NCBI GenBank assembly: GCA_002973635.1
Contig: CP027224.1
Coordinates: forward strand, 1,312,501-1,376,500
From: Lysinibacillus sp. B2A1
Lineage (GTDB): Bacteria; Bacillota; Bacilli; Bacillales_A; Planococcaceae
Length of the DNA stretch: 64,000 bases
Reading direction: 5' to 3'
Notes under the pieces: model-generated
What the model saw: the letters and a program-made list of their open reading frames with translations, nothing else
What the model was told of the DNA's origin: nothing
Databases searched by the model: none
Part shown: piece after piece, positions 50,803 to 57,790 of the stretch
Numbering within the stretch: the first letter of the stretch is position 1
How the letters are laid out: each line of letters begins with the position of its first letter
Position numbers and translations under genes: made by a program

Positions 50803-53728
50803 TTGGAACAGCAACAAGAGGCAAGAACGAGATTTCGAATGCTCTTGCAGCAACTAGAGTTAACAGAAGATGTGTATATGTCCTTTTTTGAAGAAGGTGA
50901 ATTATCACGTTTAACCGTTCACAAAAAAAACAGACTATGGCATTTCACCATTAAATTACGAGGAATACTTCCGTTTCCGTTATATCAGCTTTTTCGTACA
51001 CATTTAACGGAGAAATTTTCTGCTATTGCTCAGATCCATACAACTTTTGAAACGATAGAGAAAGATGTGACAGAAGAGCTTGTTCAGGCATATTGGTTAA
51101 CTGTAGTTGAACAAATAGATGAAATGGCGCCAACCCTTAAAAACTGTCTTGCATCTCAAATGCCAATGTGGAATGGTCAAAAGATTACTTTATCCTGTAT
51201 GCAAGAAATGGAATTTATGATGCTAAAGACGAAGTATGCAGAAAAGCTTTCCATAAGCTATAGTCAATTTGGTTTTCCACAGATGGCTATAGACTTTGTG
51301 TTGCAGGATGAAACAGAAGAAATGATTGCAGCACAGGAAGCTTTTATGGAACAGAAGCGCTTGGAAGAAGCGGCATTAGCCCAGCAAGCGATACAAGATT
51401 ACCAAAAACGGGAGCAGGAGAAGAAAGACAATCCAGCAATTGCGAACCTTGGTGATCGCCCATTCCAGCTGGGAATGCATATTAAAGACGATGAAATTAT
51501 GGAAATTAAACGTATTGTTGAGGAAGAACGTCGGGTTATTATTGAAGGATTTGTCTTTGATACAGAAATTAAGGAACTGAAAAGTGGTCGCTCATTATTA
51601 CAAATCAAAATGACCGACTATACGGATTCTATCATTGTCAAAATGTTCTCTCGCGATAATGATGATGCTGAACTGATGCAATATTTGAAAAAGGGTATGT
51701 GGATAAAAGTTCGAGGCTCTGTTCAAACAGATACATTTATTCGTGACTTAATCGTGATGGCCAATGACATTAATGAAATCAAAAAGGAAACACGACAGGA
51801 TAAGGCACCAGAGGGTGAAAAACGTGTTGAATTACACCTCCATACACCAATGAGTCAAATGGACGCTGTTACCCCAGTTGATCGCCTTGTGGCTCAGGCC
51901 GCAAAATGGGGGCATCCTGCTGTCGCTATTACAGACCATTCAGTAGTACAATCCTTCCCAGATGCGTATGCAGCAGGAAAAAAACATGGCATCAAAGTAA
52001 TCTATGGCATGGAAGCAAATTTAGTGGATGATGGCGTGCCAATTGCTTATGCCCCTGAGCATCAATTATTAACTGATGCTACCTATGTTGTATTTGACGT
52101 GGAAACAACAGGTCTTTCCACAGCTTATGATACAATCATTGAGCTTGCAGCAGTTAAAATTAAGGATGGAAATGTGATTGATAAATACGAAAGCTTTGCC
52201 AATCCACACCATCCGTTATCAGCGACGACCATTGAATTAACGGGTATTACAGACGATATGGTGCGAAATGCGCCAGAGGTGGAGCAAGTCATCAAGGAGT
52301 TCCATGCATTTATTGGAGATGGCATTGTTGTAGCTCATAATGCATCATTTGATATTGGCTTTTTATATACAGGCTATAAAAAATATGAGCTAGAGGGCAC
52401 CATTCATCCAGTCATTGATACGCTGGAGCTTGCCAGATTACTCTACCCGACGATGAAAAATCACCGTTTAAATACACTTTGTAAAAAATTCAATATTGAA
52501 TTAACTCAACATCACCGAGCTATTTATGATACAGAGGCAACAGGTTACTTACTTTTACAGCTATTAAAAGATGCAGATGAATTAAATATTAAATACCATG
52601 ATGATTTTAATAAGCATATTGGTGGTGGAGATGCTTATAAAAAAGGAAGACCGATGCACTGCACAATCTTAGCAATAGATAATGCCGGGCTTAAAAATTT
52701 ATTTAAAATCGTCACTCACTCACATACAAAAACTTTCTATCGTGTGCCTCGTGTTACACGAGCAGTCCTAGAGCAATATAGAGAAGGTTTATTGATCGGA
52801 TCTGGCTGTAGTAATGGTGAAGTATTTGAGACAATGATGAATAAATCACCAGAGGAAGCTGAGAAAGTTGCAAGATTTTATGATTATATTGAAGTCCAAC
52901 CTAAGGCAGTGTATGCGCCATTAATTGAGCGTAATGTCGTTCGTGATGAATGGACGCTTGAGGATATTATTCGAAAACTTGTAAAGCTTGGGAAGAAGCT
53001 GGATAAACCAGTTGTGGCAACAGGGAATGTTCATTATTTAGATCCGACAGATGGGATGTTCAGACAAATATTAATTGGTTCACAAGGTGGTGCCAACATT
53101 TTAAATAAATCAAAGCTACCTGAGGTTCATTTCAGAACGACAGATGAAATGCTCAAAGAGTTTGATTTTTTAGGACCAGATTTTGCAAAAGAGGTAGTTG
53201 TTACCAACTCTCAAAAAATTGCAAATATGATTGGTGATGTGAAGCCTATTAAAGACGATTTATATACACCTAAAATTGAAGGCTCAGATGATGAGGTAAC
53301 AAATTTAACTTATGAAATGGCCCATCGCATTTATGGTGATGACTTGCCTGAAATCGTGAAGGCACGTATTGAGAAGGAACTAAAATCGATTTTAGGTCAT
53401 GGCTTCGGTGTAATTTATTTAATTTCTGCGAAGCTTGTGAAAAAATCATTAGCTGATGGCTATTTAGTAGGTTCCCGTGGATCTGTTGGATCTTCATTAG
53501 TAGCGACCTTTATGGAGATTACTGAAGTAAATCCACTTCCACCTCATTATGTTTGTCCAAATTGTAAGCATGCCGAGTTTTTTGATGATGGTTCTGTTAG
53601 CTCAGGCTTTGACTTACCGAATAAAGATTGTACGGAATGTGGAACACCTTATAAAAAGGATGGACAAGATATTCCATTCGAAACATTCCTTGGTTTTAAA
53701 GGAGATAAGGTGCCTGACATCGATTTGA
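50803..53728 (+). CDS. polC: DNA polymerase III PolC, exon 1 (N-terminal part up to the catalytic DID motif)
   Basis: Essential replicative polymerase of low-GC Gram-positives. Exon 1 encodes residues 1-975: an N-terminal helical domain, an OB fold, a PHP domain (VELHLHTPMS near 342) interrupted by the DEDDh proofreading exonuclease (VFDVETTGLS near 431), the palm with zinc-binding CPNC...CTEC (about 917-945), and the catalytic Asp972 and Asp974 of PDIDL. Start is TTG 50803 with AGCAGGTG upstream. The exon ends after the first base of codon 976; unspliced RNA would stop at 53743-53745. Confidence 0.95.
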
Positions 53729-54453
53729 GTGCGACACGTTGTTAACTGAAAAGGTTAACCACCATATTTGGTAGAACTGCTATTTCGAAGTGTGGAATGA
53801 TAGCGTAACGTCTTGAAACACACTCGCTGAAGCTACGACATGCAAGTAGATGACTGCAAAACTGAAACTTGTATGAAGCTCGTTAAAGTGGGCTGAAGTT
53901 CACCCAAACAGTACGGCTGTGGAAAGAGAGCAATCTTGTGAATGATAGGTCTGGTGTCTATAAACTTTCTATGGTTAGAATCAGTAGAATCACTGGGACG
54001 AACCCTCGACTGACTTTTCGTGAATGTCACGTAGTAGAAATGCTACGGGGTCCAAATAGGACTTCTAGCTGTGGATGAGTAAGCGTTTGGTTATGAAAAT
54101 CCATCTTGTGTTACAGGCACATGCAAGCCTAGCGGAATTTAGGGGGAACCTAAGGAAAGATGTACAGATAGAAATAGTGGAACGTGTGAAGCTCCGAACG
54201 TAAGAGGAAGTTGCATTCTGATGACAACGGTGTAAGGAAAGGCTAAGTAATTAGCTATAACTTACTTAAACGGAGTGGCAGTAGTGCCGTAGTACCGTTG
54301 AAGAAATGCCATTGATGACTGAATAACAAATAGGTCGGAGGAGAAAACATTTCAGAGGGAAGGGCACAAGTCGTTAGTGTTGAAGATAAACCTACACAAG
54401 TCAGATTCTAGTATGACTAAAGAGAATGAAAGCTTCGAGTACGAGGTGATTAA

Positions 54454-55680
54454 TTGGCTGACTTAATGATACAAAAGTTAAGAAATAACGAATATTTTGG
54501 ATTACAAACAGCTTTTGATAATCTTTATGAAGAAAGTAAAAGTGGTCGATATTTTACAGACCTTTATGATGTGATTATTTCCGAAGAAAATATCATGCTC
54601 GCCTTTCGTAACCTTAAAAGTAATACAGGTAGTAAAACGAAAGGTACTAATGGACACACAATTAAACATTTAAACAAAATGAATGCTGATAAACTAATCA
54701 AGCTTGTTCGAAGAAGACTAGAAAATTATTCACCACATGCAGTTAGGCGATTATTTATTCCGAAACCAGATGGGAAGATGAGACCTCTAGGTATTCCAAC
54801 AATTGAGGATAGGCTAATACAACAAATATTTTTACAAGTATTAGAACCAATTACGGAGGCAAAATTCAATCCACAAAGTTACGGATTCAGACCCAAACGC
54901 AGCACACATGATGCATTGGCAAGATGTTATCATATGGTGAATCATAGCCATCAACACTTTGTAATTGATATCGATATAAAAGGTTTCTTCGATAATGTGA
55001 ATCATAAAAAACTTATGAGACAATTATGGACAATTGGCATTAGGGATAAAAAAGTATTAGCTATTATAACGAAGATGCTGAAAGCTGAAATTACAGGTGA
55101 AGGAGTACCGTCAAAAGGGACACCACAAGGAGGCATTTTATCTCCTCTACTTGCAAATGTAGTATTAAATGAGTTAGACTGGTGGATTTCGAATCAATGG
55201 GAAACAAAACCTACCAAAGTACCTTACAAGCTAAAACGCAATAAAACGGACGCACTTAAAAAGACAAGGTTAAAACCAATGTATCTAGTTCGATACGCAG
55301 ATGATTTTAAAATATTCACGAACTCATATGAAGATGCTCGAAAGATTAAAATAGCTGTTGAAAAATGGTTAAAAGAACGATTAGGGCTAGAAACTAGTGA
55401 AGAAAAAAGTAAAATCACGAATTTGCGTAAGAATGGTACAGACTTTTTAGGAGTTCGCTTTAGAGCGGTACAAAAAGGCAATGCGAAAACAGGATACATC
55501 GTCAATTCTAAGATGGACCCAAGAGCAAAAGAAAAGGTACAAGGCGTTATAAGGCATCAGCTAGTAAAACTAAGAAAAAGTCCTACTCCACAAAAAGTGA
55601 TGAATTTTAATGCGAATATTTTAGGGCTGCAAAACTATTATAAGATTGCAACTCGGATCGCTCAGGATTTAATGAGATAA
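54454..55680 (+). CDS. ltrA: Group II intron-encoded protein, reverse transcriptase/maturase part (frame broken at its 3' end)
   Basis: Synthesises intron cDNA during retrohoming and, as maturase, helps the RNA fold. 408 residues: RT motifs include LGIPTIEDRLIQQ, YGFRPKRSTHDAL, IDIDIKGFFDNVNH, GTPQGGILSPLLANV and catalytic YADD in LVRYADDFKIF, then the maturase X domain ending QNYYKIATRIAQD. TTG start with GAGGTG 6-7 bases upstream. The T run at 55668-55670 appears one T short; with it the reading continues FNEIRHNIHPNIKSL into the HNH frame, giving 586 residues in all. Confidence 0.92.
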   Translation: MADLMIQKLRNNEYFGLQTAFDNLYEESKSGRYFTDLYDVIISEENIMLAFRNLKSNTGSKTKGTNGHTIKHLNKMNADKLIKLVRRRLENYSPHAVRRLFIPKPDGKMRPLGIPTIEDRLIQQIFLQVLEPITEAKFNPQSYGFRPKRSTHDALARCYHMVNHSHQHFVIDIDIKGFFDNVNHKKLMRQLWTIGIRDKKVLAIITKMLKAEITGEGVPSKGTPQGGILSPLLANVVLNELDWWISNQWETKPTKVPYKLKRNKTDALKKTRLKPMYLVRYADDFKIFTNSYEDARKIKIAVEKWLKERLGLETSEEKSKITNLRKNGTDFLGVRFRAVQKGNAKTGYIVNSKMDPRAKEKVQGVIRHQLVKLRKSPTPQKVMNFNANILGLQNYYKIATRIAQDLMR

Positions 55681-55712
55681 GGCATAACATTCATCCAAAC
55701 ATTAAATCACTC

Positions 55713-56213
55713 ATGATAAGAAACATCTTTTTGAAAACAAAAGAAACAAACGGAGTGATTGATAAATTTTACGGAGATTACAATTATCCACGTTTCAAAA
55801 GCAATGGATTACTGGTATATCCTATTGAAGCAGTTCGACATGATATACGAGGACAACGCAAACCTGAATTTACGATTTATAACGCAAAAGATAGGCTAGC
55901 AATTCATAAAGATTTAAAACAAGTGTCTGTTAGAGAAATTGAAATATTTCGTAGAGGAATATATAAATCGAAAGGTGTTCTGTATGAAAATAACCGCCTT
56001 AGTAAATATGTAGCACAAAAAGGTTGTTGTGGTATTACAGGTGAGAGATTAACACCGCATCAAGCCATTTGCCACCATAGAAAACCAACAGCTCATAGCG
56101 GCACAGATGAGTATGATAATTTAATTATTATCAACAAGCAATATCATATGCTTATCCATCATTCAGATCCACTAACAAATAAAGAATATCAAAAGATAAT
56201 AAGTAAATTTTAA
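55713..56213 (+). pseudogene. C-terminal DNA-binding and HNH endonuclease part of the intron-encoded protein
   Basis: Continuation of the intron protein in the next frame; the homologous reading actually begins near 55668, before the ATG at 55713. The HNH nuclease cuts the second target strand for retrohoming. The zinc/HNH region is visible: CCGITGERLTPHQAICHHRK, then NLIIINKQYHMLIHH. No ribosome-binding site supports separate translation, so it is called a detached fragment rather than a free homing endonuclease. Confidence 0.85.
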
Positions 56214-56300
56214 GTAAAAGCAATAAATAAATTAAACAGGCTAAGAACGGAAGTAGGAAATCCAAAACTAAGCCTTTAAATTCAACAAAACTAACGATGG

Positions 56301-56337
56301 AACGCCGTATGAGTGTGAAAGCCTCATGTACGGTGTG
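56301..56337 (+). ncRNA. Catalytic domain V of the group II intron
   Basis: CGCCGTA pairs with TACGGTG, then a 2-base bulge, then TGAG with CTCA, capped by a GAAA-type loop. The catalytic triad position reads CGC rather than the commoner AGC; CGC is also known from some bacterial introns. Domain VI lies between it and the splice site. Confidence 0.85.
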
Positions 56338-56385
56338 GGACGGGGGAAAAACTAGAGATAACGTCAAAGGTTTACCTATCGTCAT

Positions 56386-57790
56386 ATTTTTCTGGTGAAT
56401 ATCAACCAAATGCCCATAACTATACGAAAGTTCTATTCGGTGAAGATTATGTATATCGTGCTGGAACAATCGGTACGGTTGCCGAGAAAACAGCGTATGG
56501 CTATGTAAAGGGCTATGCAAGTGATAATAACCTGCATTTTCGTGGGGCAGAAGTAGATCGCTTAGTGCAGGGCTGTACAGGTGTTAAACGAACAACAGGA
56601 CAACATCCTGGGGAATTATCGTAGTACCAGATTATATGGATATTTACGACTTCTCCCCAGTACAATACCCTGCAGATGCACAGGATGCTGAATGGCGAAC
56701 AACTCATTTTGATTTCCATTCCATTCACGACAATATTTTAAAGCTGGATATTCTTGGGCACGATGATCCGACTGTGATTCGTATGTTGCAGGATTTATCA
56801 GGGATAGATCCAAAAACAATTCCAACAGATGATCCAGTCGTTATGAAGATTTTTAGTTCTCCTGAAACTTTAGGTGTAACAGAAAAACAAATCGGCTGTA
56901 AAACAGGAACATTAGGAATTCCAGAGTTCGGTACTCGTTTTGTGCGTCAAATGCTTGAAGATACAAAGCCATCGACTTTCTCAGAGCTTGTGCAAATTTC
57001 AGGGCTTTCCCACGGAACGGACGTATGGCTAGGAAATGCTCAGGAATTAATACAAAACGGTACATGTGTACTGAAAGAGGTAATTGGCTGTCGTGACGAT
57101 ATTATGGTCTATTTAATTTACCAAGGACTAGAACCGTCATTGGCCTTTAAAATTATGGAGTCCGTGCGTAAAGGGAAAGGACTATCTGAAGAGTTTGAAG
57201 CAGAGATGCTTGCAAATAAAGTACCGGGCTGGTATATCGAATCATGTAAAAAAATAAAATACATGTTCCCGAAGGCCCATGCAGCAGCTTATGTGTTAAT
57301 GGCTGTACGTATTGCTTGGTTTAAGGTACACTTCCCAATCCTTTATTATGCAGCTTATTTCACAGTTCGTGCCGATGATTTTGATTTAATATCGATGGTA
57401 CAGGGTTCACAAATGATTCGTGCCAAAATTGATGAAATCAATATGAAAGGCTTAGATGCATCTACTAAGGAGAAAAACTTATTAACCGTAATGGAGCTTG
57501 CTCTTGAAATGTGCGAGCGTGGTATGAGCTTCCAAAAGGTTGACCTGTACCGTTCAAAGGCTAGTGAATTTGTGATAGATGGTAACACATTAATCCCTCC
57601 ATTTGATGCAATTCCTGGACTCGGTACGAACGTTGCGAAAACAATTGTGGCGGCACGTGAGGATGGTGAGTTTTTATCGAAGGAAGATTTACAGCAACGA
57701 GGTCGTGTGTCTAAAACTTTAATTGAATACATGGATCAACTGGGTTGTCTAGAAGGCATGCCAGATGCTAATCAGCTATCACTTTTCTAA
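56386..57790 (+). CDS. polC: DNA polymerase III PolC, exon 2 (C-terminal part, one-base frameshift)
   Basis: Continues PolC from residue 976 ([19 protein letters not shown]) through the palm, fingers and helix-hairpin-helix C-terminus to LSLF. The reading frame breaks at the G run 56610-56613 inside the conserved TTGQHPGGIIVVP; one G is missing, and a stop arises at 56622. Downstream reading resumes [17 protein letters not shown]. With the G restored, exons 1 and 2 total 4,332 nt, i.e. 1,443 residues, against 1,437 in B. subtilis. An essential gene cannot tolerate this break, so an assembly error is likely. Confidence 0.95.

Follow-up and report, generated by a model that had tools for sequence, protein, structure and literature searches.

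The window analyzed here, a 64,000-nucleotide stretch of Lysinibacillus sp. B2A1 (contig CP027224.1, positions 1,312,501 to 1,376,500), contains polC, encoding the replicative polymerase PolC, split by a group II intron (Table 1). At the junctions, exon 1 ends in GACATCGATTTGA, the intron runs from GTGCG (53729) to GTCAT (56385), and exon 2 opens with ATTTTTCTGG. The cut in polC falls after the first base of the Asn codon following PDIDL, and joining the exons gives PDIDL-N-FSGEYQP. With the TTG at 50803 as codon 1, residue 975 is the last of PDIDL, which makes codon 976 the split one; Asp972 and Asp974 in this motif are what we take to be the catalytic pair of PolC. Exon 1 aligns with the solved PolC chains 9qpc and 3f2b as far as PDIDL. 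The termini (GTGCG...AT) are of the group II type, and the domain I and domain V models (RF02004 and RF00029) both score above the Rfam gathering level, at which nothing else in the window was matched. The window's own genome (G000) holds a single full copy of the intron, while its closest relative in the genus, G014, has an uninterrupted polC of 1443 aa that is 97% identical over exon 1 and carries PDIDLNFSGEYQP. An intein was also considered and rejected, since the exon 1 frame stops after SATRC and the insert is a ribozyme, leaving no uninterrupted translation through it. A previous sequence-only reading of this DNA had placed a group II intron at 53729..56385, in codon 976 after PDIDL; the exact boundaries, the Rfam matches, and the uninterrupted gene of G014 confirm it.

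Table 1. Features of the interrupted polC locus (window coordinates) and of related introns in other genes (locus coordinates)
Feature	Location	Strand	Remarks
polC exon 1, 975 codons plus first base of codon 976	50803..53728	+	Ends PDIDL-A; same junction in relatives
Group II intron, 2657 nt	53729..56385	+	5' GTGCG, 3' AT
Domain I core of ribozyme (Rfam RF02004)	53772..53964	+	140.6 bits, E 6.6e-31
Exon-binding site 2 (EBS2; AUGUC)	54024..54028	+	Pairs with exon -13..-9 (GAYAT); 5/5 positions in 30/30 introns, G.U allowed
Exon-binding site 1 (EBS1; UUUGGU plus U)	54086..54092	+	Pairs with exon -1..-7, U.U mismatch at -3; register matches dnaE, topB, and pcrA/addA introns
Intron-encoded protein (IEP), N-terminal part: reverse transcriptase, 408 aa	54454..55680	+	RVT_1 E 1.4e-43; frame break after
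IEP, C-terminal part, other frame	55638..56276	+	Spans HNH region by alignment; 86% to residues 396-608 of L112 protein
Domains V and VI (Rfam RF00029)	56300..56385	+	49.6 bits, E 9.6e-7
polC exon 2	56386..57790	+	One-base frame break near 56608-56615 as assembled
addA intron, 2692 nt, G000	L019:6735-9426		Frame-restoring join; gene identity confirmed on both exons
recJ intron, 2774 nt, G000	L020:6955-9728		Frame-restoring join; gene identity confirmed on both exons
pcrA intron, 801 nt, ORF-less, G000	L021:7334-8134	minus	Frame-restoring join; gene identity confirmed on both exons
dnaE intron (YQEQI|M) of G067	L127:2-703		One case identified
topB intron (DHHA|I) of G062	L134:1-792		One case identified

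The open reading frame (ORF) of the IEP is broken in the window assembly, and frames of 607 to 608 aa are open in 12 of the 30 polC introns described below. The intact 608-aa IEP at locus L112 is a group II reverse transcriptase (RT)/maturase with an HNH nuclease domain (364.9 bits against TIGR04416, cut-off 300). The closest solved IEP is the maturase of PDB 6me0, homologous over residues 40 to 574 of the L112 protein (E 1.6e-52), although its host and target differ from those of the polC intron. We take 6me0 to be part of a Thermosynechococcus IIB intron, and on that hint the polC intron probably belongs to subgroup IIB.

The insertion is widespread. Among the 32 Lysinibacillus genomes, all of which carry polC, the frame stops just past the site in 7 (980 to 1007 aa) and continues in 25 (1443 to 1507 aa), which supplies the survey of interrupted and intact genes that the sequence-only reading had suggested. 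Within the family Planococcaceae (261 genomes), the junction pattern was found in 21 genomes from 8 of 19 genera; the listed matches were all without mismatch, with one allowed, and a reversed control pattern gave no match in the 261 genomes. A scan of 84,980 species returned 26 pattern loci, of which 22 are PolC, all from Bacillales as judged by name (Lysinibacillus, Metalysinibacillus, Metasolibacillus, Kurthia, Caryophanon, Domibacillus, Priestia, Mesobacillus, and Bacillus), and four (L059, L070, L077, and L079) are unrelated to PolC. Pooling the family set and the species scan and removing 13 duplicates left 30 introns. All begin with GTGYG, as the search required, and the 24 seen end to end, with the 3' end placed by the exon 2 motif, all end in AT and restore the Asn codon (DIDL-N-F), in keeping with the GUGYG and AY termini first proposed for the window intron. 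Of the six lacking one end, five lie at loci that stop before exon 2, and in G217 exon 2 was missed by the motif, though present and open. Counts at the genus, family, and species-wide levels rule out an isolated or species-specific event. A caveat to this picture of a single site is that the insertion point was built into our search patterns, which would miss introns elsewhere in polC.

The site appears to be recognized through two short guides. EBS2 (intron positions 296 to 300) pairs with exon 1 in every intron of the set. EBS1 comprises the six bases ahead of a conserved TATGAAA (intron 358 to 363), mostly UUUGGU or UUAGGU, with the next U pairing at -7, and its exon target is GAYYTRA. This register is supported by related introns in other genes: the EBS1 of the dnaE intron (UGAUUU) and that of the topB intron (UCGCGU) each pair 6/6, and UGUCUU of the pcrA/addA introns pairs 6/6 in 13 distinct copies, with one more, L182, lacking a motif match. 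Two other candidates for EBS1 were rejected, namely a hairpin loop around intron 320 to 332, which varies between introns while the exon is constant, and the product of a seven-base complementarity search, which matched in only 3 of the 30 introns and at scattered places.

Positions of polC at which the codon can change silently are faced by permissive guide bases: U opposite -2 (R) and G opposite -4, -5, and -11 (all Y), while -8, the third base of Ile, falls between EBS1 and EBS2. The tolerant base is present at -2, -4, -5, and -11 in 30, 30, 29, and 28 of 30 introns, respectively (117/120 degenerate cells). Since G or U stands opposite the synonymous positions, silent changes do not break the pairing. 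The guide UUAGGUU/AUGUC pairs without mismatch to all 23 empty Lysinibacillus sites that were read (of 25 uninterrupted genomes), and one limited to Watson-Crick pairs and matched to the commonest site fits 16 of them; the window's own guide, UUUGGUU/AUGUC, has one mismatch, at -3, in all 23. Over the five site classes, the most frequent pair is G.U at 7/12 degenerate versus 2/24 fixed positions (Fisher p 0.0025). Tolerance of silent codon changes is thus evident in the pairing, and we infer a corresponding effect on homing.

Several observations weigh against reading the guide as adapted to synonymous variation. The U.U mismatch at -3 occurs in 19/30 introns, including that of the window, a further mismatch at -2 occurs in 2/30, where the Leu codon is CTC, despite the tolerant base, and EBS1 relies on G.U pairs, including one at -7, which is a fixed position. 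The enrichment test was post hoc, covered five site classes, and had recJ entered by its best-fitting intron; of six distinct recJ introns, two have no motif match and four have mismatches or a shifted register. Moreover, sites within a class are related by descent, leaving few independent cases. The G and U bases of the guide could therefore reflect structural constraint or chance, an alternative that we regard as doubtful but that retains real weight. What speaks against it is that EBS1 differs by class (UUWGGU, UGUCUU, UGAUUU, and UCGCGU) while the same rule holds at Y/R positions, and that no intact IEP is present in any of the three polC introns in which a tolerant base was lost. These introns, the sole carriers of a strict guide base, are those of G012 (L055), G040 (L110), and Domibacillus antri (L071), and the counts are 3/15 introns without an intact IEP versus 0/12 with one (p 0.23; the three introns truncated at the end of their locus were left out). 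The distribution looks as if the fit for splicing improves once mobility is lost.

Divergence among introns and among their hosts follows different patterns. The introns of Kurthia G051 and G052 are 0.3% divergent, whereas their polC genes differ at 59% of four-fold sites; likewise, the introns of G217 and Domibacillus mangrovi differ by 2.6%, and their PolC residues by 30% over the compared 430-residue stretch. The window intron is 6.3 to 6.9% divergent from introns of other genera (G153, G053, and G163) versus 11.6 to 12.2% for four of the six other Lysinibacillus introns, the remaining two being at 6.1% (G013) and 8.9% (G012). The approximately unbiased (AU) test was applied to four host groups and rejects placing their introns in a single clade in three of them: Lysinibacillus (p 1.2e-4), Kurthia (p 4e-7), and Domibacillus (p 2e-59). 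A Caryophanon clade, on the other hand, is not rejected (p 0.065), which counts against horizontal movement for that group.

Because intron and host groupings conflict, we conclude that the intron re-homes horizontally; the comparisons show a pattern expected of spread between species into empty copies of the site, and we infer retrohoming as the route. As to a vector for this spread, a near-complete copy (80% of the full-length L112 intron) was found in none of the 367 plasmid records and none of the 5 phage records having any match. The opposing account, vertical inheritance from a common ancestor of these genera with loss in most lineages, can draw on the single insertion site throughout and on the grouping by host of 4/7 Lysinibacillus introns and of the three introns of host group g16. 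However, cross-genus intron divergence lies far below that of host polC, three of the four host groups are rejected as clades, and the frame runs uninterrupted in 25/32 members of the genus, among them the near relative G014. We consider vertical inheritance highly improbable, and the divergences and AU tests rule it out as the main story. The proposal that codons of an active-site motif offer a stable homing site fits both the shared insertion point in many genera and this horizontal re-homing.

The ribozyme is conserved in structure even where its protein has been lost. Over the first 640 alignment columns of the 30 introns, the predicted structure has 180 pairs with 98.5% of cells paired, and two-sided changes occur in 65 of these pairs. 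When the 3' partner was slid, 36 to 41% of cells were paired and 9 to 14 pairs showed such changes; the prediction and the pair counts draw on one alignment, which biases this control in favor of the structure. Most or all of the IEP ORF is lost in 10 of the 24 complete introns (767 to 1674 nt), with fragments remaining in those of G001, G024, G062, and G012. Nevertheless, both RF02004 and RF00029 pass Rfam in 10/10 ORF-deleted introns, in which 98.9% of domain I to III cells are paired. By these comparisons the ribozyme appears to have been kept under selection while the RT was lost. The ORF-deleted intron of G001 also contains a Bacillaceae-1 RNA (RF01690) at L052:3932-4002.

The intron tree implies seven changes between ORF-bearing and ORF-deleted states among 27 introns (the three cut by the locus end were again left out). 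Placed on one reference, the deletion ends are clearly different in G012, G040, G042, G062, and G067, whereas G153 and G163 seem to have theirs in common, those of G013 lie close to them, and G001 and G024 may have part in common. Different ends for all ten deletions were therefore not upheld, and the partly shared ends together with the tree changes indicate several separate losses, not ten.

A maturase for the ORF-deleted introns might be supplied from elsewhere in the genome. For 7 of the 10 ORF-deleted genomes, a full-length IEP relative is found elsewhere in the genome (best match 45 to 48% identity), and G163 has one at 28% identity. The matches in G012 are limited to a 53-residue remnant of its own IEP and to parts of distant RTs. 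In G042, a 40-contig assembly estimated to be 100% complete, neither an IEP relative at E 1e-20 nor an RVT_1 match was found. GIIM (PF08388) is likewise absent from G042, which is weak evidence since this model is a poor detector for this class of IEP, finding nothing in G013 and G067 despite the related RTs there; the RVT_1 search is the better evidence. Either general host factors help the polC intron of G042 to splice, or an RT lies in a gap of the assembly.

Given that polC is essential in Bacillus, its interruption raises the matter of how carriers make PolC. Exactly one cellular polC exon 2 is found in all 21 family carriers (77 to 100% identical), and it is open (476 to 492 aa) in 20 of them. 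An extra, divergent PolC (34 to 38%) was seen only in G000 and G217, and no alternative PolC was found in the other 19 carriers, so that in these splicing must make PolC. We conclude with high confidence from comparison that splicing of the polC transcript would be needed for PolC. The suggestion that an essential polymerase gene depends on splicing here thus gains strong support from the frame restored in 24/24 introns, the single exon 2 per carrier, and the covarying ribozyme. Weighing against it, in the window's own genome both exon 2 and the IEP are broken as assembled and a second PolC-like gene is present. Given these frame breaks and the second gene, the locus is a putative source of PolC in this one strain.

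The frame breaks in the window are probably homopolymer assembly errors and not decay. Exon 2 leaves its frame 78 residues after the start FSGEYQP, at a run of G, where the sequence-only reading had needed to restore one base. Of 76 ORFs (>=90 aa) in the syntenic stretch of G014 that have a window match, 3 are spread over two or more window frames, near 22.35 kb (about 22351), near 32.29 kb (about 32294), and in polC exon 2, and each split is one base missing in a homopolymer run that is intact in G014. In the reverse comparison, none of 80 matched window ORFs is split in G014, and this asymmetry points to error in the window assembly. There is a fourth break, in the IEP near 55660; the base-level comparison covered the three homopolymer breaks.

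The second PolC-like ORF of G000 is intact (1358 aa; L018:9558-13634, corresponding to about 1793557-1797633 of G000:C1) and has the motif PDVDLNF. The ORF begins 2 kb past a tyrosine recombinase gene, its product falls below both PolC equivalog cut-offs (711.5 versus 873 and 668 versus 1043.45), and its relatives in phage records are 27 to 35% identical (best 15 of 97 matches). It looks like part of an integrated element carrying its own replicative polymerase. The intron could in principle be a dead insertion in a polC pseudogene, with the cell relying on this second protein, as its intactness and similar motif and the out-of-frame exon 2 would allow. Yet the coding pieces of polC are 97 to 99% identical to those of G014, the same kind of homopolymer break affects two other conserved genes in the window, no second PolC was found in 19 of the 21 carriers, and the second gene has the low scores and recombinase neighbor just described; we judge a dead insertion very unlikely. 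A second intact polC, together with the absence of any spliced junction, is what the sequence-only reading had named as a finding that would speak against it, and although an intact gene of this kind exists, its divergence, subthreshold scores, and position near a recombinase leave dependence on splicing standing on present evidence. In a further alternative, each half would be translated on its own and the pair would join into a split polymerase, with no RNA splicing; we consider this extremely improbable. Although the exon 1 frame meets a stop codon five codons beyond the insertion, and a downstream ATG in exon 2 of G000 opens an ORF of 384 aa, a split protein would need neither a cut inside a codon beside the active-site motif with the frame restored in every complete intron nor a ribozyme retained even after IEP loss.

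Related introns occupy other replication and repair genes (Table 1). The addA, recJ, and pcrA introns of G000 sit within conserved-motif codons, and a second copy of pcrA exon 2 was not found in that genome. The DEYQD site of pcrA/addA is interrupted in 14/261 family genomes from 9 of 19 genera (17 matches, one with a mismatch; control, 1 match), and the recJ site in 5/32 genus genomes (control, no match).

Altogether, we consider it very probable that polC in these bacteria hosts a mobile, motif-homing intron for which splicing is required, spread is horizontal, and the RT is dispensable. A site-specific mobile group II intron of the RT/maturase and HNH type would home into the polC codons for the Asp-Ile-Asp-Leu active-site motif, with EBS2 reading GAYAT and EBS1 reading GAYYTRA; guide G opposite Y, guide U opposite R, and the Ile third base left between the guides would allow silent changes to be tolerated. 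The polC transcript would be spliced to give PolC, the intron would move between species by retrohoming, and a copy resident in the only polC of its host could lose its RT but not its ribozyme. We lean, by a little, toward a broader proposal of a Bacillales group II intron lineage specialized on the codons of motifs, catalytic or otherwise conserved, in central replication and repair enzymes (PolC DIDL, PcrA/AddA DEYQD, RecJ GDYDA, DnaE YQEQI, and TopB DHHA). Its guides would in effect read amino acid motifs, with degenerate positions faced by G or U or left unpaired, its residents would be domesticated by repeated RT loss, and at least one host would splice its only polC with no maturase in the genome. 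The motif-reading guide and the maturase-free splicing are the bold parts of this reading and may be taken as predictions from comparative data.

Group II introns normally avoid vital bacterial genes, which makes an insertion in polC unusual. Among the titles and abstract openings listed for the open-licence literature, no report of a group II intron in polC was found, and the larger pattern of which it is part was not found described in the literature searched. Introns disrupting essential genes are noted in the available part of PMC8919778, and the accessible text of PMC3522654 describes the recA group II intron of Geobacillus kaustophilus as active, citing Chee and Takami 2005, a study also referenced in PMC4424553. 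That intron is likewise in an essential DNA metabolism gene of Bacillales; the polC site differs in that it is occupied in 30 species-level genomes, in some of them by ORF-deleted introns, and is reached by horizontal re-homing. C.te.I1 of Clostridium tetani, per the section available of PMC4424553, is a ribozyme that lacks a maturase of its own and whose genome has no related IEP, and G042 looks alike; C.te.I1, however, lies in a surface-layer protein gene (PMC3919590, in part), whereas the ORF-deleted polC introns lie in the single polC of their hosts and arose by repeated deletion. The cyanobacterial dnaE genes, which had been offered as a precedent for introns in replication genes, are a doubtful one, since the portion available of PMC3919608 describes split inteins there: these too are selfish elements in the gene of a replicative polymerase alpha subunit, but they act by protein splicing, unlike the RNA splicing of the polC intron.

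Having one polymerase gene site across many genera, replicate IEP losses, and uninterrupted sister genomes as controls makes three questions directly testable, namely how mobile introns turn into obligate residents, whether an essential gene can be spliced without a maturase in a bacterium, and whether RNA guides evolve toward tolerance of synonymous variation. If true, maturase-free splicing of polC would be a bacterial parallel to organelle introns. In addition, polC genes read as fragments in surveys may be miscounted.

Beside the PolC-like element of G000 lie three adjacent genes for SLH-like secreted proteins (L018:14872-18946), two of them alike by eye; the domain name is our assumption from a sequence motif.

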